DNA from: Desulfobacterales bacterium
Lineage (GTDB): Bacteria > Desulfobacterota > Desulfobacteria > Desulfobacterales > JAFDDL01
Length of the DNA stretch: 64,000 nucleotides
Direction of reading: 5' to 3'
Assembly: GCA_034003325.1 (NCBI GenBank)
Contig: JAVEYW010000010.1
Span: 62,001-126,000 of the forward strand
Shown here: in pieces, positions 12,470 to 27,583 of the stretch
Layout of the letters: each line of letters starts with the position of its first letter
How positions within the stretch are numbered: the stretch's first letter is position 1
Translations under genes and position numbers: made by a program
Notes under the pieces: model-generated
What the model saw: only the letters and a program-made list of their open reading frames with translations
Told to the model about the DNA's origin: nothing
Databases searched by the model: none

Positions 12470-14185
12470 ATGCCACTGCAAAAGCGGTTGAAACAAGGGG
12501 CCATGCCGGCACTAATCGGCCTGTTTTTTCTGGTTACAGGCTTAACACCCGGCATTTCACTCGCACAAAGTGAGGTGGAGGCGCTGAAGGAACAGATGAA
12601 AGCGCTTACCGAAATGATGCAAACGGTGCAACAAAAGCTGGCGGCGATTGAATCGAAAACCGAATCCAAAGAATCGGAAATCAAGGAAATCGATGAGCGC
12701 CTAAACAAAGCGGAAATGCATACGGAAACCGACAAGCTCGCTTTCGGGGTTGAGCTTCGCTCCCGGGCTGATTCGATTCACTACCAGGATATGCTGACCG
12801 CGCCGCCCGAACTATTTAACAGTTTTTTCACGCCTGCGCCCGCGGGCTTTAACGGCGCGACGGCGGCTCAGATTCAACAGGCGATCGCGGGCATGGCCGC
12901 CATGGGCATGGTTCCGCCGGCTCAGAAAGCGGATATCGATAACGACATCATTTACACCAATAAATTCCGGCTCAACATGATGGCCAAGGTCAACGACCAG
13001 CTCAACTTTGAGGGACGATTGGCGGCCTACAAGGTCTGGGGCGACAGCACAGAAGTAAAATTCAATTCCGGCAGCCTGGGGGATATGACGTTTGACGGCA
13101 ACACCACGAGCCTTCCCCACGGGGACACCTTGCGCCTGGAGCGGGCCTATTTTAATTACAAAGACCAGCTCGGCATGGTTCCCATCAACTTTTCCCTGGG
13201 CCGCCGGCCGTCCACCGATGGGCCGCCGCTGGAATACGGTAATTACAGTCTTGAGGGCGGCTCCCCGATGGCCCATCTGATCAACTGGCAGTTTGACGGC
13301 GCATCGTTGAGCTTCGGCCTGGAAGAGATGACCGGCATTCCCGGGTTTGCGTTCAAGCTTTGTTACGGTGTGGGTTTTGAAAGCGACTGGGGAAACAGCG
13401 GATCTCTTACCAGCCAGTCAGATCTGGAAGACGTCCACCTGATGGGCTTTATCGCCACCCTTTTTGACAACGATATCTGGAGCGCGGAATTGAACTACGC
13501 GCACGCTTCCGATATTACGGACGGGTTTACGGGGTTGACCGTCATGCCCTTTATCATCTCCGTAGACAGTGCGACGGGCGCTTATCATTTTACCCCCAAC
13601 AGCAGCAGCGCCTTTATCAGCCGCATGGAGCCTTCCACCAATATCGGCAACTGGGATGCGGCCGTGCTGCTGCTTAGAAGCAACCTCTTGGAATGGGTTG
13701 ACTGGGATATCGATTTATTCCTGTCGATGGGATGGTCGCACACGGACCCCACCGAAGTCTCCCAGAATCCCTTTTGGAATCTGCTGGGATACAGTCTGCT
13801 AAGCTCCAACGGTCAACTGGAAGAACAGGACGGCTACAGCATTTATGCCGGGGCGCTCTTCCCCATGCCGTTTAATGCGCGCCTGGGCATCGAATACAAC
13901 TACGGCTCTAAATACTGGTTTAACTTTACCGGTGCGGAAGACTCCCTGATCGGCAGCAAACTGGCCACTCGCGGACAGGTCTGGGAGAGCTATTACATTC
14001 AGCCGATCTTTCGGGATAATTTCTTCCTGAAGCTCGGCGGCCAATACTATGATTATGAGTACACCGGGTCCGGCAACCCGCTGGGAAAACCGGTGAGCAT
14101 CTCGGACGCCACTGCCCTGGACACCCTGTTCCCAGTCATTGATGAGGTCTGGAACTTATATATGTCTGCAACCATTAGATATTAA
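12470..14185 (+). CDS. Outer-membrane beta-barrel protein with N-terminal coiled coil (DUF3373-like porin)
   Basis: A signal peptide (about residues 1-32, ending SLAQS) is followed by a heptad-like coiled coil (EVEALKEQMKALTEMMQTVQ through the KESEIKEIDERL segment). The remainder is a long region of alternating aromatic/hydrophobic strands ending in SATIRY, with a terminal aromatic residue as in outer-membrane barrels. The 571-residue size and layout resemble the DUF3373 family of anaerobic proteobacteria. GGAGG stands 5 bases before the ATG. As the first gene of the operon it probably admits the substrate of the periplasmic reductase encoded next; the substrate itself cannot be read from sequence. 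Confidence 0.75.
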   Translation: MPLQKRLKQGAMPALIGLFFLVTGLTPGISLAQSEVEALKEQMKALTEMMQTVQQKLAAIESKTESKESEIKEIDERLNKAEMHTETDKLAFGVELRSRADSIHYQDMLTAPPELFNSFFTPAPAGFNGATAAQIQQAIAGMAAMGMVPPAQKADIDNDIIYTNKFRLNMMAKVNDQLNFEGRLAAYKVWGDSTEVKFNSGSLGDMTFDGNTTSLPHGDTLRLERAYFNYKDQLGMVPINFSLGRRPSTDGPPLEYGNYSLEGGSPMAHLINWQFDGASLSFGLEEMTGIPGFAFKLCYGVGFESDWGNSGSLTSQSDLEDVHLMGFIATLFDNDIWSAELNYAHASDITDGFTGLTVMPFIISVDSATGAYHFTPNSSSAFISRMEPSTNIGNWDAAVLLLRSNLLEWVDWDIDLFLSMGWSHTDPTEVSQNPFWNLLGYSLLSSNGQLEEQDGYSIYAGALFPMPFNARLGIEYNYGSKYWFNFTGAEDSLIGSKLATRGQVWESYYIQPIFRDNFFLKLGGQYYDYEYTGSGNPLGKPVSISDATALDTLFPVIDEVWNLYMSATIRY

Positions 14186-14280: not shown

Positions 14281-14616
14281 ATGTTTAAAAAAACCGTATT
14301 GATGACTGTTTCTCTCTGTTTGGTCTTTGGTTTTTCGTCTTTAAGTTTCTCGGCGGACAAGGGCAATGCGCGAAAGGGAAAACATCTTTTCCGCAATACC
14401 TGCCGAACGTGTCATCAGGACGGAGCGAGCGCCAAGGCGCTAGGTCCGGACAGCAAAACGCAGGCCCAATGGACGCGGGTGTTCGCCCCCGAAAAATACA
14501 AGCAATTGGCTTGCAAGGCGGAATGGGAAAAGCATAGCGCGGAAGACCTGAATGATATCTATACCTATCTATACGAGCATGCATTTGACTCCCCATCCCC
14601 CGCGAAGTGTAAATAA
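14281..14616 (+). CDS. Small periplasmic monohaem cytochrome c
   Basis: A 111-residue protein with a cleavable signal peptide (hydrophobic 4-22, ending SFSA) and one haem-binding motif CRTCH at about residues 40-44. A second pair of Cys residues (LACKAEW and the terminal AKCK) could form a disulfide. The helix after the haem (SAEDLNDIYTYLYEHAF) is typical of class I cytochromes. Its position between the porin and the molybdenum enzyme suggests electron delivery to, or removal from, the reductase in the periplasm. A met-type axial ligand is not obvious. Confidence 0.85.
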   Translation: MFKKTVLMTVSLCLVFGFSSLSFSADKGNARKGKHLFRNTCRTCHQDGASAKALGPDSKTQAQWTRVFAPEKYKQLACKAEWEKHSAEDLNDIYTYLYEHAFDSPSPAKCK

Positions 14617-14631
14617 TCGAGGAGAGATAAA

Positions 14632-16851
14632 ATGACGTTTGAATCGGGCACAGCCATTTCGCGACGAAGTTTTCTCAAGTGGACCGGGGCGGCCACCGCG
14701 GCGGCAGCCGTGGGGAGCCGCCCGCCGGTGGTACACGCGCTGGTGCCGGCGGGCAAAGCAAAAGCGGCGAGCAAAATTTCACATCATTATTCAGCGTGCG
14801 ATATGTGCCTTAACCGGTGCGGCCTGGTGGCGCGGGTGGAGGACGGGGTGGTCACGAAGCTGGATCCCAATCCCAAATTCCTCAAATCCAGGGGCATGCT
14901 GTGTGCGCGCGGCAACGCGGGCATTCAGCAGCTCTATGATCCGGATCGCCTGAAATATCCGCTTCTTCGCACGGGAAAGCGGGGTGAGGGAAAATGGCGC
15001 CGGCTCGGTTGGGATGAAGCCTTGAATCTGGCGGCTGACAAGCTCAAAACGATCGCGGAAAAATACACCCGGTGTGGTGTGCTCTTCACACCGGGCTCGG
15101 ATATGCAATCCTTATTTGTCAATCACTTTGCGGAAGTCTTCGGTTCTTATAATGTGACTTCCCACGAATCCAGTTGCCTGCTAAGTCGCAATCGGGCCTA
15201 TCTGGACACTTTCGGCGAAGTGCCGTTTGCGGATGTTCTAAATTCCCGCTATATCCTCATGGCGGGCGCCAACTGCTATGAGGCGCTCATTACGCCGGAC
15301 AGCATCGATCTGATGACCGCCCGGAAAAACGGAAGCAAACTGGTGGTGCTCGATCCCCGGTATACCAAGACGGCCGGTCTTGCCGATGAATGGTATCCGG
15401 TGCGGCCGGGTACGGACATGGCGTTTTTTCTCGCCCTGGCCCATGTGATTCTCACTGAAAGTCTCTATGATGCCGCCTATGCGGCCGAAAAGCTCTATGG
15501 CCTGGAAGAACTTAAAAGCCATGTTCAGTCATACTCCCCGGAGTGGGCGGAAAAAGAGTGCGAGATTCCAGCGAGTGATATTCGCCGCATCGCCCGGGAA
15601 ATGGCCGCGGCCGCACCGGCCGCCATGGTGTATCCGGGAAGACGCACGTCCGATTATGTCAATTCCACCCAGATTCGACGCGCCATGGCCATCGTCAACG
15701 CCCTTTTGGGCAATTGGGACAAGCCCGGCGGACTTCTGGCGGCAAGACAGGTCGGCCTCAGTTCGCCGAATCTGCCCGAATCGCCGTTTTATGAGGATAA
15801 CCCCGAGGACCGCATCGATCACGGGCGAGCACACATGATGTTCGAAGAGGAAGGCGCATTCAAGCATGTGCGCGATGCCATCATCGAAGAGGAGCCCTAT
15901 GCGATCAAAGGCTGGTTCGTGTACAAGTATAATCCCCTGCAAACGCTGGCCAATCGCCAAAAGACGCTTAAGATGCTCGAGAAGATGGATTTCATGATCA
16001 CCGTGGACATCACCATGAGCGATACGGCCTGGGTTTCCGACCTGGTGTTGCCCGCCCCCAGTTATCTGGAACGCCGGGACCCGGCCGTCGGGCTTCAGGG
16101 CTCGTCCGCCTGTGCCTGCGTGGTGATGCGGGAGCCGGTGGTGGCACCCCTGTTTGAATCCAAGCCGGTATTCTGGATTTTAAAGGAACTTGCCGCACGC
16201 CTGAATCTTGCGGAGTATTTCGACTTCACCATGGAAGAATATCAGAAACAGCAACTGAAAAACCTGCCGCACGCCGAACGCGCGCTGAAAGAAGACGGGG
16301 TGTACTACAACCCCAGTCAACTCTACGGGGTTTACGAGGGGCGTATCTTTAAGACCAAGTCAACCAAAATAGAGCTGTACAACGAACGTTACGCCGAAAT
16401 GGGCGTCAACCCCATGCCGGTCTACACCCCCCCTAAAAAGACGCCCGAAGGTCGCTTTCGCCTGGTGCTGGGCAGAAGCGCCTATTTTACACATGCCACC
16501 ACGCAGAACAATACGCTGCTGCACGAATTGATGCCGGAAAACGAGCTGTGGATGCACCCCGGGGCTGGCAAAGCGCTGGGCATTCGCGAAGGAGAGGTGG
16601 TGCGGGTTGCCAGTGACGCCGGCAGCGCGGAAATCAAGGCCACCTTTAAAAACGGCATTCGCCGGGACACGGTGTATATGGCCAGCGGATTCGGCGTTCT
16701 GTCCAAAGGACTGACCCATATTCAGGGCAAAGGCGCCTGTATCGTCGAGCTGATCGATGATTTCGCGGATGACCTGTCCGGCAACATGGCCATGCACGAA
16801 ACCTTTGTTCAAGTATCCGGTGTTCGGGGTTCCAGGAAAGGAGCGGCATGA
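14632..16851 (+). CDS. Molybdopterin oxidoreductase catalytic subunit (PhsA/PsrA-like)
   Basis: The N-terminus has a Tat signal (SRRSFLKWTG, then Ala-rich), so the folded enzyme is exported. A 4Fe-4S site follows (CDMCLNRC, then the Cys of GMLCARGN). The bis-MGD domain contains ESSCLLSRNRAY, where Cys is the likely molybdenum ligand, plus CYEALITPDS and the C-terminal dinucleotide-binding domain (NNTLLHELMPENELWMHP). At 739 residues it matches the thiosulfate/polysulfide/tetrathionate reductase branch of the DMSO reductase family. The FeS and cytochrome b genes follow, giving an NrfD-free, cytochrome-b-anchored complex. The sulfur-compound substrate is suggested by the rhodanese gene at the end of the operon but is inference. 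Confidence 0.88.
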   Translation: MTFESGTAISRRSFLKWTGAATAAAAVGSRPPVVHALVPAGKAKAASKISHHYSACDMCLNRCGLVARVEDGVVTKLDPNPKFLKSRGMLCARGNAGIQQLYDPDRLKYPLLRTGKRGEGKWRRLGWDEALNLAADKLKTIAEKYTRCGVLFTPGSDMQSLFVNHFAEVFGSYNVTSHESSCLLSRNRAYLDTFGEVPFADVLNSRYILMAGANCYEALITPDSIDLMTARKNGSKLVVLDPRYTKTAGLADEWYPVRPGTDMAFFLALAHVILTESLYDAAYAAEKLYGLEELKSHVQSYSPEWAEKECEIPASDIRRIAREMAAAAPAAMVYPGRRTSDYVNSTQIRRAMAIVNALLGNWDKPGGLLAARQVGLSSPNLPESPFYEDNPEDRIDHGRAHMMFEEEGAFKHVRDAIIEEEPYAIKGWFVYKYNPLQTLANRQKTLKMLEKMDFMITVDITMSDTAWVSDLVLPAPSYLERRDPAVGLQGSSACACVVMREPVVAPLFESKPVFWILKELAARLNLAEYFDFTMEEYQKQQLKNLPHAERALKEDGVYYNPSQLYGVYEGRIFKTKSTKIELYNERYAEMGVNPMPVYTPPKKTPEGRFRLVLGRSAYFTHATTQNNTLLHELMPENELWMHPGAGKALGIREGEVVRVASDAGSAEIKATFKNGIRRDTVYMASGFGVLSKGLTHIQGKGACIVELIDDFADDLSGNMAMHETFVQVSGVRGSRKGAA

Positions 16852-17612
16852 AAACACAACTTGCCATGGTGATCGATTCGTCGGTCTGCATTGATTGCAA
16901 AGGCTGCACCGTTGCCTGCAAGGTGGAAAACCGGGTTCCCGAGGGGCACTGGCGCAACTGGGTCAAGCAAGACGTGCCGAACGTGGAAGAGATGTTTAAC
17001 CACCCGAAAAAAGCTCGCCTTCATTTTCAACCGGGCGGGTGCATGCATTGCGAAAATGCGACCTGCGTGCAGGCCTGCCCGACCGGAGCCACTTATAAGA
17101 ACCACGAGGACGGCACGGTTCAGGTCAACAAAAAGCTTTGTATCGGCTGCGGATCATGTATTCCAGCGTGCCCGTATGGCGCACGCTACCGCCATCCGGT
17201 GGAAAAGGTAGTGGATAAGTGCGATTTTTGCGCCGCCCGCAGGGCGCGCGGCGAACTGCCCGCCTGCGTGACCACCTGCCCCACCAAGGCCAGGACCTTC
17301 GGGGATATCAATGACCCGAAAAGCGATACGGCCATTCTGCTGAAAAAGCATGCAAGTATTCGGGTGATCAATGCCGCGACCGATACAAAACCCAATATGT
17401 ATTATCTGTCGCAGACCGCACCCATGAACTGGCCCCAACCAGCAAAAGAGCCCACCCCCATCGGGTGGTTAAAATCCTTGTACCCGGTGGTGTGGGCACT
17501 GGTTGGATTTAACGCCCTGGGCGTGCTGGCCATGCTCGGAAAGCAGCTCATCTCAAAAGATGAAGCGAGTCCACCTGCGCATGAGCCGGCAAAAGGGGGG
17601 AAAAATGATTAA
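16848..17612 (+). CDS. 4Fe-4S ferredoxin-type electron-transfer subunit
   Basis: A 254-residue protein with four cysteine groups in the order of DmsB/PhsB/NrfC subunits: CIDCKGCTVACK, CMHCENATCVQACP, CIGCGSCIPACP, and CDFC with the later CVTTCP. It should hold four 4Fe-4S clusters and move electrons between the cytochrome b anchor and the molybdenum subunit. A C-terminal hydrophobic helix (SLYPVVWALVGFNALGVLAM) may tether it to the membrane. It has no own Tat signal and is probably co-exported with the catalytic subunit. Its ATG overlaps the upstream stop. Confidence 0.92.
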   Translation: MKTQLAMVIDSSVCIDCKGCTVACKVENRVPEGHWRNWVKQDVPNVEEMFNHPKKARLHFQPGGCMHCENATCVQACPTGATYKNHEDGTVQVNKKLCIGCGSCIPACPYGARYRHPVEKVVDKCDFCAARRARGELPACVTTCPTKARTFGDINDPKSDTAILLKKHASIRVINAATDTKPNMYYLSQTAPMNWPQPAKEPTPIGWLKSLYPVVWALVGFNALGVLAMLGKQLISKDEASPPAHEPAKGGKND

Positions 17613-18312
17613 ACGACATACGATTGCCGCCATCTTCATGCACTGGTTCAATGCGGCCTGCTGGCTTTTTCTGCTGGCCACCGGCATGGGGCTGATTGAA
17701 AACGAGGCATTGCGTCTTTTCGGCGGCGCCTGGAGCCGCTGGATGCGCACCCTGTTCGGCTCCGGTGAAACCCTGTTGACGGTTCATATCGTCGTGGGAT
17801 CCGTTTGGGCGGGCGTATTTTTTATATACGGCCTGATCGGTCTTCGGTCGGCCGTGTGGCCTTTCGTCAAGGAGATTCTCACGCTTTCGCCGGCCCGGGA
17901 TATGGTGTGGCTGGTGAAAAAAGGCGTGCAAATGACGTTGGGCAAGGGCGTACTGCAAAAAATGGGTATGGACCCGGAGTTGCCGGACCAGGGATTTTAT
18001 AATGTCGGACAAAAGCTTTTTGCCGTGCCTTCGCTATTTGGCGGCATATTGATCGGCATCAGCGGCATAGTTCTCGCGCTCTCCAGTGTCTGGTTTACGA
18101 ACACCGTGTGGGTGCAATGGGCCATTCTGATTCATTTTATCTGCGTGGGCCTGGTTTTTGCTGGGTTGTTGATTCATGTATACATGGCTTCCATCGCGCC
18201 GGGAGAGCGCCCGGCGTTTAAATCCATGTTTACGGGCAAGGTGCCCGAAGACTACGCCGAACATCATCATAGGCTCTGGTATCTGGATCTTAAAAAAAGA
18301 GACCAAGGATAA
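17605..18312 (+). CDS. Membrane cytochrome b anchor subunit
   Basis: From ATG 17605 (overlapping the FeS gene by 8 bases, with AAGGGGGG upstream) the product is 235 residues with four to five membrane helices (MHWFNAACWLFLLATGMGLI, then a VHIVVGSVWAGVFFIYGLIG helix, LIGISGIVLALSSVWF and IHFICVGLVFAGLLIHVYMA). His residues in the first helix and in the VHIVVG and LIHVYMA segments are the expected haem b ligands, as in the formate dehydrogenase gamma/PhsC type. It would link the quinone pool to the periplasmic enzyme. Confidence 0.88.
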   Translation: MIKRHTIAAIFMHWFNAACWLFLLATGMGLIENEALRLFGGAWSRWMRTLFGSGETLLTVHIVVGSVWAGVFFIYGLIGLRSAVWPFVKEILTLSPARDMVWLVKKGVQMTLGKGVLQKMGMDPELPDQGFYNVGQKLFAVPSLFGGILIGISGIVLALSSVWFTNTVWVQWAILIHFICVGLVFAGLLIHVYMASIAPGERPAFKSMFTGKVPEDYAEHHHRLWYLDLKKRDQG

Positions 18313-18315
18313 GGA

Positions 18316-18801
18316 ATGCGAATACGACGCGTCTTTCAGATGTTTATGGTGGCGGGGTTTCTCGCGAATGCGGCTGCGGCCGCAAACGAAGCCGCACCCT
18401 TCTGGTGGCAAAACGCGGTCAACGAAGCCAGGGAAAACGGGTATGCCGTGTTGACACCGGATGAATTTAAGGCCTGCCTAACAAGCGACCGGAATTGCCT
18501 TCTGGTGGACGTGCGGCCGGATTATGAATTTGAATCCGGCCATATTCCAGGTGCTGTCAACCTGATGTTCGATCCCGGTGACCGCATGGCGCTCAGCCCG
18601 GAAAAACAACAACAGTTCGAAGCGTTGCTCGGGCCGGACAAAAACCGGTGTATGATTATCCATTGCCGGGATTTCAGGTGACTTAGAAGCGGCATCGCCG
18701 CCCGCTGGGCCGTGCGCCTGGGCTACACGCAAGTTTATCGCTTTGTCCACGGCTACTTCGGATGGAAGGAGCATCAAGCGGCACTCAGCCCTGAGCGATG
18801 A
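18316..18801 (+). CDS. Periplasmic rhodanese-domain protein with in-frame UGA (candidate selenoprotein)
   Basis: The frame opens with a signal peptide (MVAGFLANAAAAA) and a rhodanese domain (LLVDVRPDYEFESGHIPGAV). A UGA at 18679-18681 interrupts it. Reading continues in the same frame through LRSGIAARWAVRLGY and VYRFVHGYFGWKEH, the expected end of a rhodanese, to a stop at 18799-18801 (161 codons). The active-site Cys is in IIHCRDFR, and the UGA falls five residues after it, so the loop reads C-x4-U. Related rhodaneses with a CNGPxC-type loop carry Cys there, which supports selenocysteine. A GCGGC-ATC-GCCGC hairpin begins 7 bases after the UGA and could be part of a SECIS. A nonsense mutation is the alternative. 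Last gene of the molybdenum reductase operon; its 3' end overlaps the convergent torD gene by 17 bases. Confidence 0.75.
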
Positions 18802-19429
18802 TACGGATTAGTGCTGCCGTAAACCCGGCAGCCGGTGCATAGACGGCCGGGTCCGGTGACTGACCAAGCCGTTGTGTGAACGCGTCGATCCAGGCGCCCA
18901 ACGTTTCCGCGGCAAAGTGCTGTGCGGTGTCGAGATAGGCCTTGTTATCGCCGGCCCACCCTTTTTCTAAAAGAAAATATAGATATTCCAGTTCGATCGC
19001 CAGATGATCGGGTGGTTCTCCTGCGGCATGGCCGGCCATATTCAGCTCGACCGCTTTAAGTCTGCGCTGCATATCGACTGCGGAAGGCCCCATGAGGGAA
19101 GCGCCTTCAAGGGCATAACAAGATTGGTAGAGCGGCACCGCGATGCCGCCCCTACTGCTGACAAAGAGGCGGACATACGTTGTTTCCAACGCCCGGTATA
19201 ATCCCTCCGGGTCGAAGAACCGTCGGGTATAGGCTTGAATCTCCTGCAGCGCCGGAGAAAAACTTGACGCAACGGGATTCGTTGCCGCGCAAAAGGATTC
19301 AAAAAACCGGCCTTCAAGGATCTCCCGGCTTTGCCCGATATCCGGGCCCCAAAAGAGCCGGCAAAGCTGCCGAAGGCTGGTTAACACCTGTTGCCGCTGA
19401 TCCATTGAAAAGGCGCTGTAGGGGGTCAT
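18785..19429 (-). CDS. TorD/DmsD-family molybdoenzyme chaperone
   Basis: A cytoplasmic all-helical protein of 214 residues with the TorD core (TYVRLFVSSRGGIAVPLYQS and the DHLAIELEYLYFLLEKG motif with its typical 'E.e.m..L' helix). Such chaperones bind the Tat signal of molybdenum enzymes and aid cofactor insertion, so the client is most likely the 14632 catalytic subunit. The start is placed at ATG 19429 (GAGGAA upstream) rather than the in-frame TTG at 19441. It is transcribed toward the reductase operon. Confidence 0.85.
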   Translation of the reverse strand: MTPYSAFSMDQRQQVLTSLRQLCRLFWGPDIGQSREILEGRFFESFCAATNPVASSFSPALQEIQAYTRRFFDPEGLYRALETTYVRLFVSSRGGIAVPLYQSCYALEGASLMGPSAVDMQRRLKAVELNMAGHAAGEPPDHLAIELEYLYFLLEKGWAGDNKAYLDTAQHFAAETLGAWIDAFTQRLGQSPDPAVYAPAAGFTAALIRIIAQG

Positions 19430-19558
19430 TAGATTCCTCAATGATGGCGGTGATTGGTTATTTATACCCGATGTGCGCCGATTTGCAACCCGTTCTTAAA
19501 CCATGAAAGCACCGGCTATAAGATATCGATCATTTGAAACCAAACAACCTGGCATTGC

Positions 19559-20284
19559 ATGGTGATCCATATAATATCCGCGCAGCCGCACGGCAAAGGA
19601 GTTCCGGTCTTGGATTTTAAAATTTGCGACAAGGGCGGCAAAGAGTTTCTGATGGCCATTGAGAAATTTCATGGATGGCAAGCGCCCGGCATGGTGATGG
19701 GCGGGTTGATGGTGGATCTGGCGCTTGAGTTGCTCGATACCTTTTCAGACCCGGCCGCTGTGGTGGAAACACATTGTTTTCTTCCGGACGCGGTTCAGTT
19801 GTTCACCCCCTGCACGGTCGGAAACGGGCGGCTGGCCATTCTCAACTGGGGGAAAATGGCATTGACCCTTTATGATAACACAACATCGGCCGGCTATCGT
19901 ATCTGGCTGGATCTGATCAAGGCGCGGTCGATTCCAAGCATCTATAACTGGCAGATGCACTTGGCGCCAATGCAAGAACAGCGCGCCGAACGCCTCATCA
20001 TGGATATGCTCACCGCCGGACACTCGATTCTATCCTGGCGCGCCGTACCGATCACAAAATCCTTCGGCACCCGTATCGATGCCACCATGGCGGTCTGCCC
20101 GCGATGCGATGAGGCCTACCCGGCCATTCAGGGAAACCGTTGTCTCTCCTGCCAGGGGAAAACCTATTTCGAACTGCCTGAAGAAACGGTTGCTATTCAC
20201 CCACCTCGGTCCGGTCAAGCTTCCAAATCCCTTCTTCCAGGACCAGATACTCTATATTGTGCTCTGTCACCCCCTCCGGATTAA
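19559..20284 (+). CDS. FmdE-family protein with C-terminal zinc ribbon
   Basis: The 241-residue protein carries the FmdE (formylmethanofuran dehydrogenase subunit E-like) signature FHGWQAPGMVMGGLMVDLAL and CTVGNGRLAILNWGKMALTL, then a zinc-ribbon-like CPRC-x12-CLSC near 185-205. Proteins of this family are associated with molybdenum/tungsten enzymes, but their biochemical role is not settled. Its neighbours, a TorD chaperone and the molybdenum reductase, fit that association. There is no strong ribosome-binding site at 19559. The last 92 bases overlap the convergent gene at 20193, which is unusually long. Confidence 0.78.
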   Translation: MVIHIISAQPHGKGVPVLDFKICDKGGKEFLMAIEKFHGWQAPGMVMGGLMVDLALELLDTFSDPAAVVETHCFLPDAVQLFTPCTVGNGRLAILNWGKMALTLYDNTTSAGYRIWLDLIKARSIPSIYNWQMHLAPMQEQRAERLIMDMLTAGHSILSWRAVPITKSFGTRIDATMAVCPRCDEAYPAIQGNRCLSCQGKTYFELPEETVAIHPPRSGQASKSLLPGPDTLYCALSPPPD

Positions 20285-21741: not shown

Positions 21742-23643
21742 ATGCATAGCAACTACTTGACGCGCCATCTCATCCTGTCCGCAATCGCAACCGGAATCGT
21801 CCTATCCCCTGCCCCCTTGCTTGCCGAAGCATCCGTCACTACCCTGAATCCCATAACCGTTACCGCGGAGCGCTTTCCGGTCAGGGAAAAGGAGAGCGGC
21901 CGTTTTGTGACGGTGATCTCATCTTCGGAATTAAAGGAAACGGGCGCCAATAATCTTTTGGACGCCATGAAACGGGTGGGCGGCTTTGCCTACAAAGCCA
22001 TGGCCCCCTTGGGGATTTCCCACGGCGGCATGAACAGCACGTTGACCATTCGCGGGATCAAAGACGGTGAGCTTATTCTGATCAATGGCGCCCCCATTCA
22101 GGGGGCGGCCGGGCATGCCTATGATCTTGACACCATTCCCCTTGACCAGATTGAGCGGGTGGAAATTCTCAAAGGGGCCGCTTCCACCCTTTACGGCGCA
22201 GACGCCATGAGCGGTGTCATCAATATCATCACCAAAACCCCCCGAAACGAAACCGCGGTTACCAGTGCAGTGGAATTCGGCAATAAAGACTATCACCATC
22301 ATCGTCTTTCAGCCGCCTTGCCCGGTGTGAACCTCGGTTTCAATTACCGGCACCTGGGAAGTCAGACGGAAATTTCCCGCAGTTTTTCCGGAAAATACCG
22401 CTATGACCTGGATAGCACCGATCAATACGCCTGGAATGTCAATGCCCGACTGGCTGACCATCTCTATCTGGACACCATCGGATCCTATTCGCAAACCGGT
22501 TTTCAAAAGCATTACGACGCCAATAAAAAGCCCTATGAGGGAACGAATCAGGATTATTACAAAAACTTCGCCAATCTTCGGTTCGAAACCCCCGCCTTCA
22601 AAGCCAAGGTCTTTGGCACCTTTGATGAAATGCAACGGGAAGAATACACCGATTTGAATGAGCCTGCGGATAAAAACAAAAACTATAATGGCGGTCTGGA
22701 AGGAGATTATCAATTTCAACGGTCGGGCTGGGAGTTCAATCTGGGCACGGACTGGATTTACCGGGGGGCCGATTACAACAATCAATACGGAAAGCATTAT
22801 CGAAATGATTATGCTTTGTTTGCTCAGGTAAAACGGGTCGTTCGGGATCGGCTGACCGCCACCATCGGGGTAAGGGAGCAGCTTATTGACGGCGCTTCCG
22901 GTGCCAGTGATTATGATCAATTCCTGCCCAGCCTCAGCCTGAGCTATGCAGCAACCGATTCGCTCAATTTCTTTGCCAATACCGGAAAGGCCTTTCGCAC
23001 CCCCACCTTCAACAACCTGTATTATGACAGCTCCTTTTTGACGGGGAATCCCGACCTGGGGCCCGAAGAAGGCTGGACTTATGAAGGCGGCGTAAAATAT
23101 GACATCGACAGGCTTCGGGTCCGGTTTTCGCTGTTTTATATGGCCTACGAGGATAAAATCGAGCTCGACCGCTCCAAAGGGTACCCGCTCACTTATTTCA
23201 ATGCCGGGGATTATGAAAGCAAGGGGGTGGAATGGGAAATCAACGTGATTCCCTATATTCAGCAAAGTGGCCGGACGCGGCGGCTTTCCCTTTACACCTC
23301 GGGATACTGGGCTGATCCAACGGCCGAAGACACCAGCGGGGAAGATTACCAGACAAGTCCCAAATTTCAGTCGACCGTGGGCCTGGGCTATCTTGCCGAC
23401 CCGCTGACCCTGGAAGTCAATTGTCAGTTTCTGACCGCCAAAGAACGCAATCTGGACAGCGACGCCATTCTTAATTTTTATTCCAAATACAACCTCTGGA
23501 AAGGCCACCTGACCGTTGCCGTGGACAATGTCTTTGATGACGCCGTTCATGTGTCCGGCGATCTATCCGAGGAGGCCAGCAACCGGTATGTGTACTACGA
23601 AGTTGGTCGACTGATGAAGGTGGGCTATGAAATCAACTTTTAA
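21742..23643 (+). CDS. btuB: TonB-dependent outer-membrane receptor (BtuB-like)
   Basis: A 633-residue receptor with a signal peptide (ends LLAEA), a short TonB-box-like ITVTAERF, a plug domain (TLTIRGIKDGELILINGAPI, then IERVEILKGAASTLYGADA and SGVINIITK) and a C-terminal barrel with the usual GKAFRTPTF motif, ending in aromatic EINF. Control by a cobalamin riboswitch and position before corrinoid genes make cobalamin or another corrinoid the likely cargo. Its similarity in gene order to haem receptors (HmuR) leaves another tetrapyrrole possible. AAAGGAGA lies upstream of the ATG. The next gene starts inside its last 17 bases. Confidence 0.88.
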   Translation: MHSNYLTRHLILSAIATGIVLSPAPLLAEASVTTLNPITVTAERFPVREKESGRFVTVISSSELKETGANNLLDAMKRVGGFAYKAMAPLGISHGGMNSTLTIRGIKDGELILINGAPIQGAAGHAYDLDTIPLDQIERVEILKGAASTLYGADAMSGVINIITKTPRNETAVTSAVEFGNKDYHHHRLSAALPGVNLGFNYRHLGSQTEISRSFSGKYRYDLDSTDQYAWNVNARLADHLYLDTIGSYSQTGFQKHYDANKKPYEGTNQDYYKNFANLRFETPAFKAKVFGTFDEMQREEYTDLNEPADKNKNYNGGLEGDYQFQRSGWEFNLGTDWIYRGADYNNQYGKHYRNDYALFAQVKRVVRDRLTATIGVREQLIDGASGASDYDQFLPSLSLSYAATDSLNFFANTGKAFRTPTFNNLYYDSSFLTGNPDLGPEEGWTYEGGVKYDIDRLRVRFSLFYMAYEDKIELDRSKGYPLTYFNAGDYESKGVEWEINVIPYIQQSGRTRRLSLYTSGYWADPTAEDTSGEDYQTSPKFQSTVGLGYLADPLTLEVNCQFLTAKERNLDSDAILNFYSKYNLWKGHLTVAVDNVFDDAVHVSGDLSEEASNRYVYYEVGRLMKVGYEINF

Positions 23644-26600
23644 AGGCGCAGAATTGCTTTTAAGACGCCTACTCATAATCGGCGCGGGTTGCTGCGTCCT
23701 GCTCCTTTTTGCCGAATCGGCGCTTTCGGCCGACACAAAGCGCATGGGCCTGTTTGTGGGAGATTCCGATGCCTACACCTGCGCCCGTGCGCTGAAATCG
23801 CCGGGCCTGCCGAATGTCGAGGTTCGCATCTTTACGGACAAGGATATCGGTCTCCCGGATGTTGAAGCCTTTATTCGACAAATGGATGTGGCGGTGGTGG
23901 ACATCATGCAACGTCAACCCGCCGGCTGGCTGATGGAAAACCGGAATAAGATGAAAGCGGACGCCCGGATTTACGCGGTGCGGCACTCCGGTCATACGCA
24001 GGATTTTCTGACCGCCGGGTTTAAAATGGATTCAACGGTTCGTGCCTATTATCACTACACCACTGTTGACAACATCGCCAATTTGGTTCGTTTTCTGGCG
24101 AATCGGGATCTGAGCCTTTCCACTTCCTATGAGCCTCCGGTCAGCCCGCCGGAAAACGCGCTGTATCACCCGGATGCGCCAACATTCTTTTCAACCCTTG
24201 CCGAATACGTCCAATGGTACCGTGCTTCCGGTCATTTTCAGGCGGGCAGACGCTGGAATCTTACGGTTATTTTTCCGACCTTCACAATAGACGGGAAAAA
24301 AGAACCTGTGGACGCCCTGATTCGGGCCTATGAAACGCAAGGCATCAACACCGTGACCTGGATGCGGGCGATAAAGAACTGGGAAAACACGCTGGACCAT
24401 CTGATTTCCGGCCCGCCGCTCTCGGACCAACTGGGGTCCATCACCGGGTTTGCCTTCAGATTCAGCTCCATTTTATCGGGGGATTCGTTGCGCGTTCTGG
24501 AAAAAGCGAATGTGCCGGTATTGAACAGCCAGCAACTCTTTTTCAGTTCAAAAGAAGAGTGGTTGAGCCATCCGCAGGGTATTTCTTCGGTGGGACTGGC
24601 CTTTCAGTTTTCAAACCCGGAAATCAGCGGGTTGGTGGAGCCGACGCTCATCGGCCTAAAGACCAAAGATTCAGCCTTGGCCCTGGAAGGCCATGCCTTT
24701 CGCTATGAGCCGTACGCCCCCCAGGTAGAAAAGTTGGCCCGCCGGGCGGCCCGGTGGCATGCGCTAAAAGAGATGCCCAACAAGGACAAGAAGATCTTTC
24801 TGATGACTTACAACCACGGCGCCGGCAAACAGAACATCGGGGCGAGTTATCTCAATGTCTTTCGAAGTATTAGCCGAATCATTGCCCGCCTGAAGGCCGG
24901 AGGGTACACCATTGAAGGGGACTTCACCGAGGAAAGCGTTAGCGAATTGCTCCTCAAATCCGGTCGCAATATCGGATCATGGGCACCGGATGAACTGGAT
25001 GCGCTGCTTCGGGAGGGACGGGCCGTTTTGATCGATATGGCGGATTATGGCAAATGGCTGGCCAAGACGCCCGAAGCTTTCCGCGAAAACGTCATCAAAG
25101 ACTGGGGCTCCCCGGAAGACAGCAAGATCATGACAAAGAACGGGAAATTCGTCATCCCCTGCATTCGGCTCGGCAACCTGATCCTCGCCCCTCAGCCGGT
25201 GCGCGGCTTTAGCGATGATTCGGACAAATTATATCACAGCACCACACTGTATCCGCATCACCAATATAACGCCTTTTATTTCTGGCTTCAGGAACAACTT
25301 CACCCCGACGCCATGATCAGTCTCGGCACGCACGGCACGCACGAGTGGCTGCCGGGAAAGCAGGCCGGACTGACCCGCGAATGCGCGCCGGAAGTTTTGA
25401 TCGGCGATATCCCCAACCTGTATCCCTATATCGTGGATGATGTGGGCGAAGGCATTCAGGCCAAGCGCCGGGGCCGCGGGGTCATCATCGATCATGCGAC
25501 ACCCCCCTTTAAGCAGGGCGGGACTTACCGGGAATACGCCACACTGACCGCCCTGATCAGCGAGTACAACACCGCTTCATTCGAACAAATTCAGGCCGCC
25601 CGCCTGAAACGAATTCGGGAAATAACCCTTCGCCTGGGGCTGGACAAGGATTTGGCGCTGGCCGCCGTCAATGCAATTGCGCTTGAAAAAATCGAGCATT
25701 ACCTGCTGAAACTGAAAACCGAAATGATTCCTTACGGCCTGCATACCTTCGGGGTTTCCCCTGCCGATGAGGCCCTCGCCGAAACGGCTCGGGCCATGGC
25801 GGAAAAAGGCGGGAAACCCGAAAATTTTTACGCGCAACAGATTCGCGCCTGCGGGCCTTCGGAATTGGACAGCCTGGTGCGGGGGCTTTCCGGTGGCTTC
25901 ATCGCACCGGCATCGGGCAATGATCCCATCAGAAATCCGGAAAGTCTGCCCACCGGGAAAAATTTTTATGCCTTTGATCCCGAAAAAGTGCCGTCCAAGG
26001 AGGCATGGGAAGCCGGTAAACAAGCGGGCCGGGACCTCATCGACGCGTACCGGAAACAGCATGACAACGCCTATCCCGAACAGGTGGGGGTGGTGCTCTG
26101 GTCTGTTGAAACCATTCGGGATGAAGGCATCAATGTGGCGACCGCCCTGTATCTGATGGGCATAACCCCGATCTGGGATTCCCGGGACAAGATCAAGACC
26201 GTTTCTCCCCTTCCCGCCGCCGGCTTGAACCGGCCCCGCATCGATGTACTGCTTCAAATGTCCGGCCTTTTCCGGGATACCTTTCCGCAGGTGGCCCTGA
26301 TGCTGGATGCGGCCGTCAAAAAAGCGGCGGCGTTGACCGATCTGGAGAACTTTATCCGCAAACATTCCAAAGCCGTTGAAAAATCCCTCCTCGCCAGCGG
26401 GCACACGCCCGAGGAAGCGAAAAGACGCTCCCTGGTCCGTCTCTACAGCGCGCCTCCCGGCGCTTACGGCACCAAGGTGGATGATATGGCCGGCAACAGC
26501 GGGCTATGGGAAAAAGATGACACCGTATCCGAACAGGGATTTGTGCCGATGCAGTCTTACGGCTATTCATCCGACCAGTGGGGAACCGCCATGGAAAGCG

Positions 26601-27583
26601 CCTACCGGGAACACCTTAAATCCGTGGACGCCACGGTCCATACGATCTCTTCCAACCTCTACGGCGCCATGGACAATGATGACATGTTCCAGTATCTGGG
26701 CGGCCTGAGCATGGCCGTGCGCAAGGCGTCCGGAAAAGATCCGGCGGTGTTTGTCTCCATGCAGCGCACAACGGAAAAAGGCCGGGTGGAACCCCTTTCC
26801 ACCACGCTTGGCCGGGAGCTGCGCAGCCGTTATCTGAATCCCAAATGGATTGAAGGCATGAAAGCGGAAAAGTATGCCGGCGGCCGGGAGATGGCCGAGT
26901 TCATGGAAAATATGTGGGGCTGGCAGGTCACCACGCCCGAAGCCGTGGACAAAAGCCTCTGGGAGCAAAGCTATGAAGTGTATGTGGAAGATAAATACGG
27001 TCAGGATATTAAAGCATTTTTCAATAAGGAAAACCCCTGGGCCTATCAGTCCATGACGGCGCGCATGCTGGAGGCGGTGCGAAAAGGATACTGGCAGGCG
27101 GGAAAAGCCGTCACTGAAAAATTGGCGGCCGAATACGCCCTGAACGTCGTGGAAAAAGGCGTGGCCTGTTGCGACCACACCTGTAACAACCCCCTGCTGA
27201 ACCAAATGGTGGTAGGCATTATCTCCCTGCCGGGGGTTTTATCGCAGGAAACGGCTAAAGCATTTAAACTGGCCGTGGAAAAAGCGGCGGCCAACCCCCT
27301 GAATGAGCAGGTTGGCGCGCGAAAGGCGCTATTGGCCAAACTGAATTCCGGGGTCGAGAAAACAACTCGCAAGGCGCGACCGGAATCACGAAAAACACCC
27401 GAGCGGCCGGACGGGGCAAACGGCCCAAAAGACGCCAAGCGCGTTGAAGGCTATAAAATGGAAGACATTAAAACCCAAGATGAAACAACGGCCTTATGTT
27501 CTTCCGGCGTTCAATGGGCCGCCTCGCTTTTTGTGCTGTTTCTCATCGGGTTATTTTTTTGGGGATCACGCAGCAGGCGGTAG
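23627..27583 (+). CDS. Exported, membrane-anchored CobN-like metal chelatase (HmuS-type)
   Basis: The 1318-residue protein belongs to the CobN / magnesium-chelatase H family: GTHGTHEWLPGKQAGLTREC, the DDVGEGIQAKRRGRG segment, SLYSAPPGAYG-like RLYSAPPGAYGTKVDDM and DNDDMFQYLGGLS are family landmarks. Unlike cytoplasmic CobN, it has a signal peptide (hydrophobic 11-30, cleavage near SALSA, residue 35) and a C-terminal transmembrane helix (AASLFVLFLIGLFFWG) followed by arginines, so the chelatase body should sit in the periplasm, anchored to the inner membrane. No CobS/CobT partners are seen and the downstream operon is the anaerobic Cbi pathway, so canonical cobalt insertion into hydrogenobyrinate is unlikely. 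It resembles HmuS, a haem-processing CobN homologue of Bacteroidetes. The substrate is inferred to be a corrinoid or other tetrapyrrole. Confidence 0.85.
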   Translation: MKSTFKGAELLLRRLLIIGAGCCVLLLFAESALSADTKRMGLFVGDSDAYTCARALKSPGLPNVEVRIFTDKDIGLPDVEAFIRQMDVAVVDIMQRQPAGWLMENRNKMKADARIYAVRHSGHTQDFLTAGFKMDSTVRAYYHYTTVDNIANLVRFLANRDLSLSTSYEPPVSPPENALYHPDAPTFFSTLAEYVQWYRASGHFQAGRRWNLTVIFPTFTIDGKKEPVDALIRAYETQGINTVTWMRAIKNWENTLDHLISGPPLSDQLGSITGFAFRFSSILSGDSLRVLEKANVPVLNSQQLFFSSKEEWLSHPQGISSVGLAFQFSNPEISGLVEPTLIGLKTKDSALALEGHAFRYEPYAPQVEKLARRAARWHALKEMPNKDKKIFLMTYNHGAGKQNIGASYLNVFRSISRIIARLKAGGYTIEGDFTEESVSELLLKSGRNIGSWAPDELDALLREGRAVLIDMADYGKWLAKTPEAFRENVIKDWGSPEDSKIMTKNGKFVIPCIRLGNLILAPQPVRGFSDDSDKLYHSTTLYPHHQYNAFYFWLQEQLHPDAMISLGTHGTHEWLPGKQAGLTRECAPEVLIGDIPNLYPYIVDDVGEGIQAKRRGRGVIIDHATPPFKQGGTYREYATLTALISEYNTASFEQIQAARLKRIREITLRLGLDKDLALAAVNAIALEKIEHYLLKLKTEMIPYGLHTFGVSPADEALAETARAMAEKGGKPENFYAQQIRACGPSELDSLVRGLSGGFIAPASGNDPIRNPESLPTGKNFYAFDPEKVPSKEAWEAGKQAGRDLIDAYRKQHDNAYPEQVGVVLWSVETIRDEGINVATALYLMGITPIWDSRDKIKTVSPLPAAGLNRPRIDVLLQMSGLFRDTFPQVALMLDAAVKKAAALTDLENFIRKHSKAVEKSLLASGHTPEEAKRRSLVRLYSAPPGAYGTKVDDMAGNSGLWEKDDTVSEQGFVPMQSYGYSSDQWGTAMESAYREHLKSVDATVHTISSNLYGAMDNDDMFQYLGGLSMAVRKASGKDPAVFVSMQRTTEKGRVEPLSTTLGRELRSRYLNPKWIEGMKAEKYAGGREMAEFMENMWGWQVTTPEAVDKSLWEQSYEVYVEDKYGQDIKAFFNKENPWAYQSMTARMLEAVRKGYWQAGKAVTEKLAAEYALNVVEKGVACCDHTCNNPLLNQMVVGIISLPGVLSQETAKAFKLAVEKAAANPLNEQVGARKALLAKLNSGVEKTTRKARPESRKTPERPDGANGPKDAKRVEGYKMEDIKTQDETTALCSSGVQWAASLFVLFLIGLFFWGSRSRR

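Follow-up and report, generated by a model that had tools for sequence, protein, structure and literature searches.

In the window, by which we mean the whole 64,000-nucleotide stretch of Desulfobacterales DNA analysed here, a rhodanese gene with an in-frame UGA codon closes an operon that runs from a DUF3373 porin-like protein through a cytochrome c, PsrA/PhsA-like and PsrB-like subunits and a cytochrome b to the rhodanese, with a TorD-type gene converging on it from the other strand. The genes, and the features within the rhodanese gene, are as follows.

12470..14185 (+), first gene of the operon, for a DUF3373 porin-like outer-membrane protein (Pfam DUF3373, 421 bits)
14281..14616 (+), small c-type cytochrome (Pfam Cytochrome_CBB3), kept in ortholog operons
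14632..16851 (+), PsrA/PhsA-like molybdopterin catalytic subunit with a Tat signal (PhsA model, 576.9 bits; PDB match 2vpw)
16848..17612 (+), PsrB-like 4Fe-4S subunit (Fer4_11 and related Fe-S models), kept in ortholog operons
17605..18312 (+), cytochrome b membrane subunit (Pfam Ni_hydr_CYTB, 53.4 bits)
18316..18801 (+), gene of the predicted C-x4-U rhodanese selenoprotein, 161 residues, with an internal UGA and a UGA stop
18316..18384 (+), likely signal peptide (MRIRRVFQMFMVAGFLANAAAAA), judged by eye from the sequence
18664..18666 (+), catalytic Cys117 (UGC), the expected persulfide site, invariant in all 19 members of the operon-linked family
18679..18681 (+), UGA read as Sec122, at the sixth position of the active-site loop; of the 19 members, this gene included, 12 have UGA and 7 have Cys
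18691..18718 (+), candidate SECIS hairpin with loop GCU, 22 nt after the UGA, 10 bp, -13.8 kcal/mol
18785..19441 (-), TorD-type molybdoenzyme chaperone, convergent and overlapping the end of the rhodanese gene (Pfam Nitrate_red_del, 73 bits)

The rhodanese gene starts 3 bases after the end of the cytochrome b gene. The product of the converging gene scores 52 bits with the TorD model itself, which is below the cutoff. Just past this gene lies an FmdE-type protein with a treble-clef zinc finger (19559-20284, +), and an FmdE-like protein is also found past the TorD gene in locus L035 (11102-11683). Further along the same strand, 21742-27583 (+) holds the genes for a TonB-dependent receptor and, after it, a CobN/Mg-chelatase-like protein (1318 aa) that has a signal-like N-terminus and a C-terminal membrane segment, which together look like a metal or tetrapyrrole uptake pair.

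As the sequence-only reading had described, the UGA at 18679-18681 lies five residues after the catalytic cysteine (C117/U122), at the site where rhodaneses with a C-x4-C loop carry their second cysteine, and 39 in-frame codons come after it. The frame closes with a UGA stop at 18799-18801. When the UGA is read through, the active-site loop becomes H-C117-R-D-F-R-U122-L-R-S, a C-x4-U arrangement, and the protein belongs to the Pfam Rhodanese family (PF00581), with a domain score of 65.7 bits against a gathering score of 22.2 and the active-site cysteine at the start of the loop. The match spans residues 47-152 and positions 1-101 of the 102 in the profile, nearly end to end. On visual inspection the putative signal peptide has a basic N-terminus, a hydrophobic core and then small residues, and the rhodanese is likely to be a periplasmic protein.

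The search took in overlapping genome sets, namely 194 relatives together with 389 genomes from the order, 340 from the class, 395 from the phylum and a single additional family, and it yielded 18 orthologs outside the host, all within the phylum. These are set apart from all other rhodaneses by their scores (at least 150 bits, against at most 118 bits), and in the tree the operon-linked family forms a single clade with support of 95/97. A single scan of genome contigs recovered nothing but a distant TrhO-type protein. Of the 18 orthologs, 11 have UGA in the place of U122 and the remaining seven have TGC or TGT, with no other residue at this site, and the tree requires at least three changes between the cysteine and UGA states. 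Both states occur within the genus g195, where three genomes (G440, G578 and G770) carry the UGA form and four (G660, G697, G768 and G769) the cysteine form in loops that are otherwise nearly identical, CRSFRULRSGIAARWAV in the former and CRSFRCLRSGIAARWAV in the latter. The same restriction holds more widely, since in all 83 distinct homologs with a comparable loop, a comparison that sets aside the distant TrhO-type protein L001, the position of U122 is occupied by cysteine or UGA without exception.

The sequence downstream of the UGA had been read as the conserved end of a rhodanese, and the 18 orthologs bear this out at the protein level. Conserved columns of their alignment reach as far as W150, and in the less diverged of the ortholog pairs compared the differences lie mostly at third codon positions on either side of the UGA. 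An in-frame UGA that interchanges with cysteine in homologs, together with coding conservation that continues past it, is the usual evidence for a selenoprotein, and it excludes a local nonsense mutation. A strain-specific nonsense mutation or a sequencing error is ruled out by the presence of UGA at the same codon in 11 other orthologs. A nonsense mutation of this kind was one of two outcomes that would have undone the initial proposal, and the other, a residue that is neither Cys nor UGA at this site, was seen in no ortholog. On this comparative evidence UGA122 almost certainly encodes selenocysteine.

The host genome encodes a tRNA-Sec (74.4 bits, over the cutoff; anticodon tca by ARAGORN) and SelA (616.5 bits), the genes for SelA and tRNA-Sec sitting on contigs C5 and C13, and it also holds a second UGA-containing protein, of the TsoB type, with two UGA codons in a UxxxxU loop (G000:C28; L041 ~1027-1392). 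SelB was not found in the assembly, which is 97.6% complete in 46 contigs, with either of two profiles, the matches being EF-Tu copies, a probable IF-2, a probable LepA and other GTPases. A search for the missing selB through its neighbors found no shared neighbors. An assembly gap is the likely, if unproven, reason for this absence, which is the main weak point of the case for this organism. All 18 ortholog genomes encode SelB, those with the selenocysteine form and those with the cysteine form, so its presence does not separate the two kinds of genome.

The published bacterial SECIS model places the loop 16-37 nt after the UGA (PMC13188914), and the hairpin originally put forward as a SECIS element, GCGGC-AUC-GCCGC at 18689-18701, departs from it, having no G in its loop and starting 12 nt after the UGA. 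The hairpin with the GCU loop is within the published limits; its fold is equalled or bettered by 85% of synonymous shuffles. The shuffling test covered ten sequences, this gene included, and in none of them did the region downstream of the UGA give a hairpin better than its synonymous shuffles. Cysteine orthologs form equally stable hairpins there from the same protein sequence, and for both reasons we make no SECIS claim from folding energy. An Rfam scan of the operon gave no match. A SECIS hairpin in 18691-18718 is therefore possible but unproven.

The undetected SelB and the lack of a SECIS hairpin better than chance would both fit a UGA that is a true stop, leaving either a broken gene or a 121-residue product that ends just past the catalytic cysteine. 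This reading is nevertheless hardly credible, given that UGA stands at the same codon in 12 genomes from several families and is replaced elsewhere only by cysteine, that the protein is conserved beyond it and that the genome encodes both tRNA-Sec and SelA.

With the UGA taken as a selenocysteine codon, the neighboring genes bear on what the protein may do. The proposal had been that the rhodanese ends a sulfur-compound reductase operon of Phs type. Linkage to a Psr/Phs-type operon stands: at least one Psr gene lies upstream in every ortholog genome in which the upstream DNA can be read, a count that leaves aside G773, whose contig begins inside the rhodanese gene. The assignment to Phs needs qualifying, as the 576.9 bits of the catalytic subunit fall short of the PhsA cutoff of 694. 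Its best PDB match, at 436 bits, is the Thermus enzyme 2vpw, deposited as a thiosulfate reductase. From its sequences the operon is best described as Psr/Phs-like, with polysulfide, thiosulfate or another compound as candidate substrates. The comparative evidence supports the initial view that this sulfur-compound reductase operon closes with a rhodanese whose C-x4-U loop contains selenocysteine. A TorD gene lies beside the rhodanese in 13 genomes, the host's own included, and within the order DUF3373 is found upstream in five genomes, namely the host's own, G120, G155, G131 and G207. In G025 a 1086-residue protein (L035 1993-5253), in which an NrfD-like membrane part is apparently joined to a multihaem cytochrome, lies upstream of the PsrA gene, with no cytochrome b gene detected alongside.

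The combination of a porin-like protein and a cytochrome c with a rhodanese also recalls Geobacter, in which the rhodanese ExtH is clustered with the porin ExtI and the selenocysteine cytochrome ExtKL, and in which the reduction of selenite and tellurite suffers when ExtI is lost (PMC5877670, PMC6148476). By analogy the protein might contain selenocysteine and handle compounds of selenium or tellurium, such as selenite or perselenide, in place of sulfur. We consider this improbable, since the molybdoenzyme is closest to Psr/Phs and not to selenate reductases, the rhodanese has no ExtH match in NCBIfam, and the porin-like protein here is a DUF3373 protein, unlike ExtI, which Pfam places among the phosphate-selective porins (PMC5877670). 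On the last two grounds an ExtHIJKL-type selenite cluster, which the porin and rhodanese had brought to mind, was rejected as an identification of the operon.

The loop is not confined to single-domain proteins. Tandem rhodaneses adjoin the same operon in G025, G120, G131, G594 and family f88, and in tandem rhodaneses, near the operon or elsewhere, the loops are of the C-x4-C kind with the second cysteine sometimes replaced by UGA (CEGMKU, CGGPTU, CQGPTU, CGGYTU, CGGLAU, CGGYGU and CEGPRU). The repeated alternation of cysteine and selenocysteine at this sixth position speaks for a residue that acts as redox partner to the catalytic cysteine. Tandem genes with UGA at this position include L035 8631-9767 in G025 and L033 10777-11685 in G120, and the clusters of these two genomes each hold two selenorhodanese genes, the C-x4-U ortholog and the tandem one. 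In G050 a tandem rhodanese (L043 5293-6414, -) has two C-x4-U loops, in its first and its second domain, and its gene adjoins a cytochrome c related to that of the operon (14281..14616). Elsewhere in the phylum, L142, L143, L145, L149, L150, L154 and L155 are tandem rhodaneses with a single sixth-position UGA, in one domain.

In families f45 and f88 the orthologs carry a fused C-terminal AhpC-TSA/ResA-like domain with a CxxC motif, and this domain, like the DsbD part of TsoB, could be a supplier of electrons. Such a fusion, and a selenocysteine with a cysteine nearby, would equally suit general thiol redox work, and seleno-oxidoreductases of the CxxC type are common (PMC13188914), so that the protein might mainly be a peroxidase-like or disulfide-reducing protector of the periplasm or of the molybdoenzyme and not a sulfur carrier. 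This role seems unlikely to us in view of the rhodanese domain with its intact catalytic cysteine, the strict linkage to Psr/Phs-type operons and the tandem rhodaneses that share the operon in several genomes.

Operon-linked tandem rhodaneses tied to sulfur-compound reductases are familiar from PhsE of Desulfitobacterium and SbdP of Aquifex. Proteins of this type are tandem whereas the protein described here is single-domain, and the tandem rhodaneses beside the Psr/Phs-type operon have C-x4-C or C-x4-U loops. A single-domain comparison is offered by Sud of Wolinella succinogenes (1qxn), a periplasmic sulfurtransferase that binds sulfur chains. Sud has a single active cysteine, and it is not known to have a second redox residue or to be a selenoprotein. 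A structure model predicted from the single sequence (pLDDT 64.7, a modest model) matches rhodaneses in Foldseek, among them this Wolinella polysulfide-sulfur transferase as the third match (E 4.5e-4, TM-score only 0.45-0.51), and the two may share a periplasmic single-domain rhodanese fold. Sud serves polysulfide respiration (Klimmek 1998, as cited in PMC3397948).

Five forms of rhodanese selenoprotein have been described, with the motifs UxxS, UxxG, CxU, UxxG and UxxxxU (PMC13188914). The fifth of these, TsoB (NF045694), is a rhodanese/DsbD fusion selenoprotein of the same rhodanese subgroup, which our protein matches with 109 bits over the N-terminal part and with which it shares selenocysteine at the sixth loop position within a conserved [UC]x4U-[VLA]-RS motif. 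TsoB differs in having selenocysteine at the first loop position as well (UxxxxU) and a DsbD-like membrane part, whereas our protein is single-domain, C-x4-U and operon-linked, and with 109 bits against a cutoff of 805, a single domain and cysteine at the first position it is not a member of TsoB. Likewise NF041203 (rhodanese_LYCAU, CxU) is a rhodanese with a Cys/Sec loop, but its selenocysteine lies two residues past the cysteine rather than five, and membership was rejected at 20 bits against a cutoff of 115. The C-x4-U loop may already be represented by form 1 (WP_010941598.1, motif UxxS; PMC13188914), to which U-L-R-S fits in a comparison by motif only. No NCBIfam model scored above its cutoff for the operon-linked C-x4-U family, and in the literature searched we found no account of this family or of its exchange of selenocysteine and cysteine within a genus.

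Taken together, we consider it reasonably probable that the protein is a periplasmic selenocysteine rhodanese that uses C117-x4-U122 as a sulfur carrier or persulfide reductase for the adjacent reductase. In the mechanism that we propose, Cys117 would take up sulfane sulfur as a persulfide from polysulfide, thiosulfate or a partner rhodanese, and Sec122 would attack this persulfide, so that sulfide leaves and a Cys117-S-Se-Sec122 bond forms. Alternatively, Sec122 might hand the sulfur to the neighboring Psr/Phs-type molybdoenzyme. The S-Se bond would be reduced by a thioredoxin-like partner, which in some relatives would be the domain fused to the rhodanese, and the protein would thus act as a Sud-like periplasmic sulfur carrier turned reductive. 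For the mechanism in full we would put the chances at slightly short of even. Comparison between genomes supports the UGA/Cys interchange, the operon linkage, the fusions and the repeated use of the loop; that selenocysteine is inserted and the protein exported we infer, as we do the sulfur chemistry and the partner. More tentatively still, selenocysteine may have entered the sixth rhodanese loop position repeatedly in the phylum, in operon-linked single-domain proteins, in tandem rhodaneses and in TsoB, giving a reductive rhodanese that would form one Cys-S-Se-Sec bond per cycle and release sulfide. Such an enzyme would be a persulfide reductase that depends on selenium and supplies a quinone-linked sulfur-compound reductase.

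A typical rhodanese has one cysteine and carries sulfur without a change of redox state. The pairing of cysteine with selenocysteine in the loop, or with a second cysteine in close relatives, and the linkage to a respiratory sulfur reductase suggest a rhodanese that is itself redox-active. Genes with an in-frame selenocysteine UGA are normally called as truncated proteins, and so annotation can readily overlook this family. With selenocysteine and cysteine forms both occurring naturally in a single genus, the benefit of selenium could be tested directly, and the sequence comparisons suggest in this family an unlisted use of selenium in sulfur respiration through a redox-active rhodanese.
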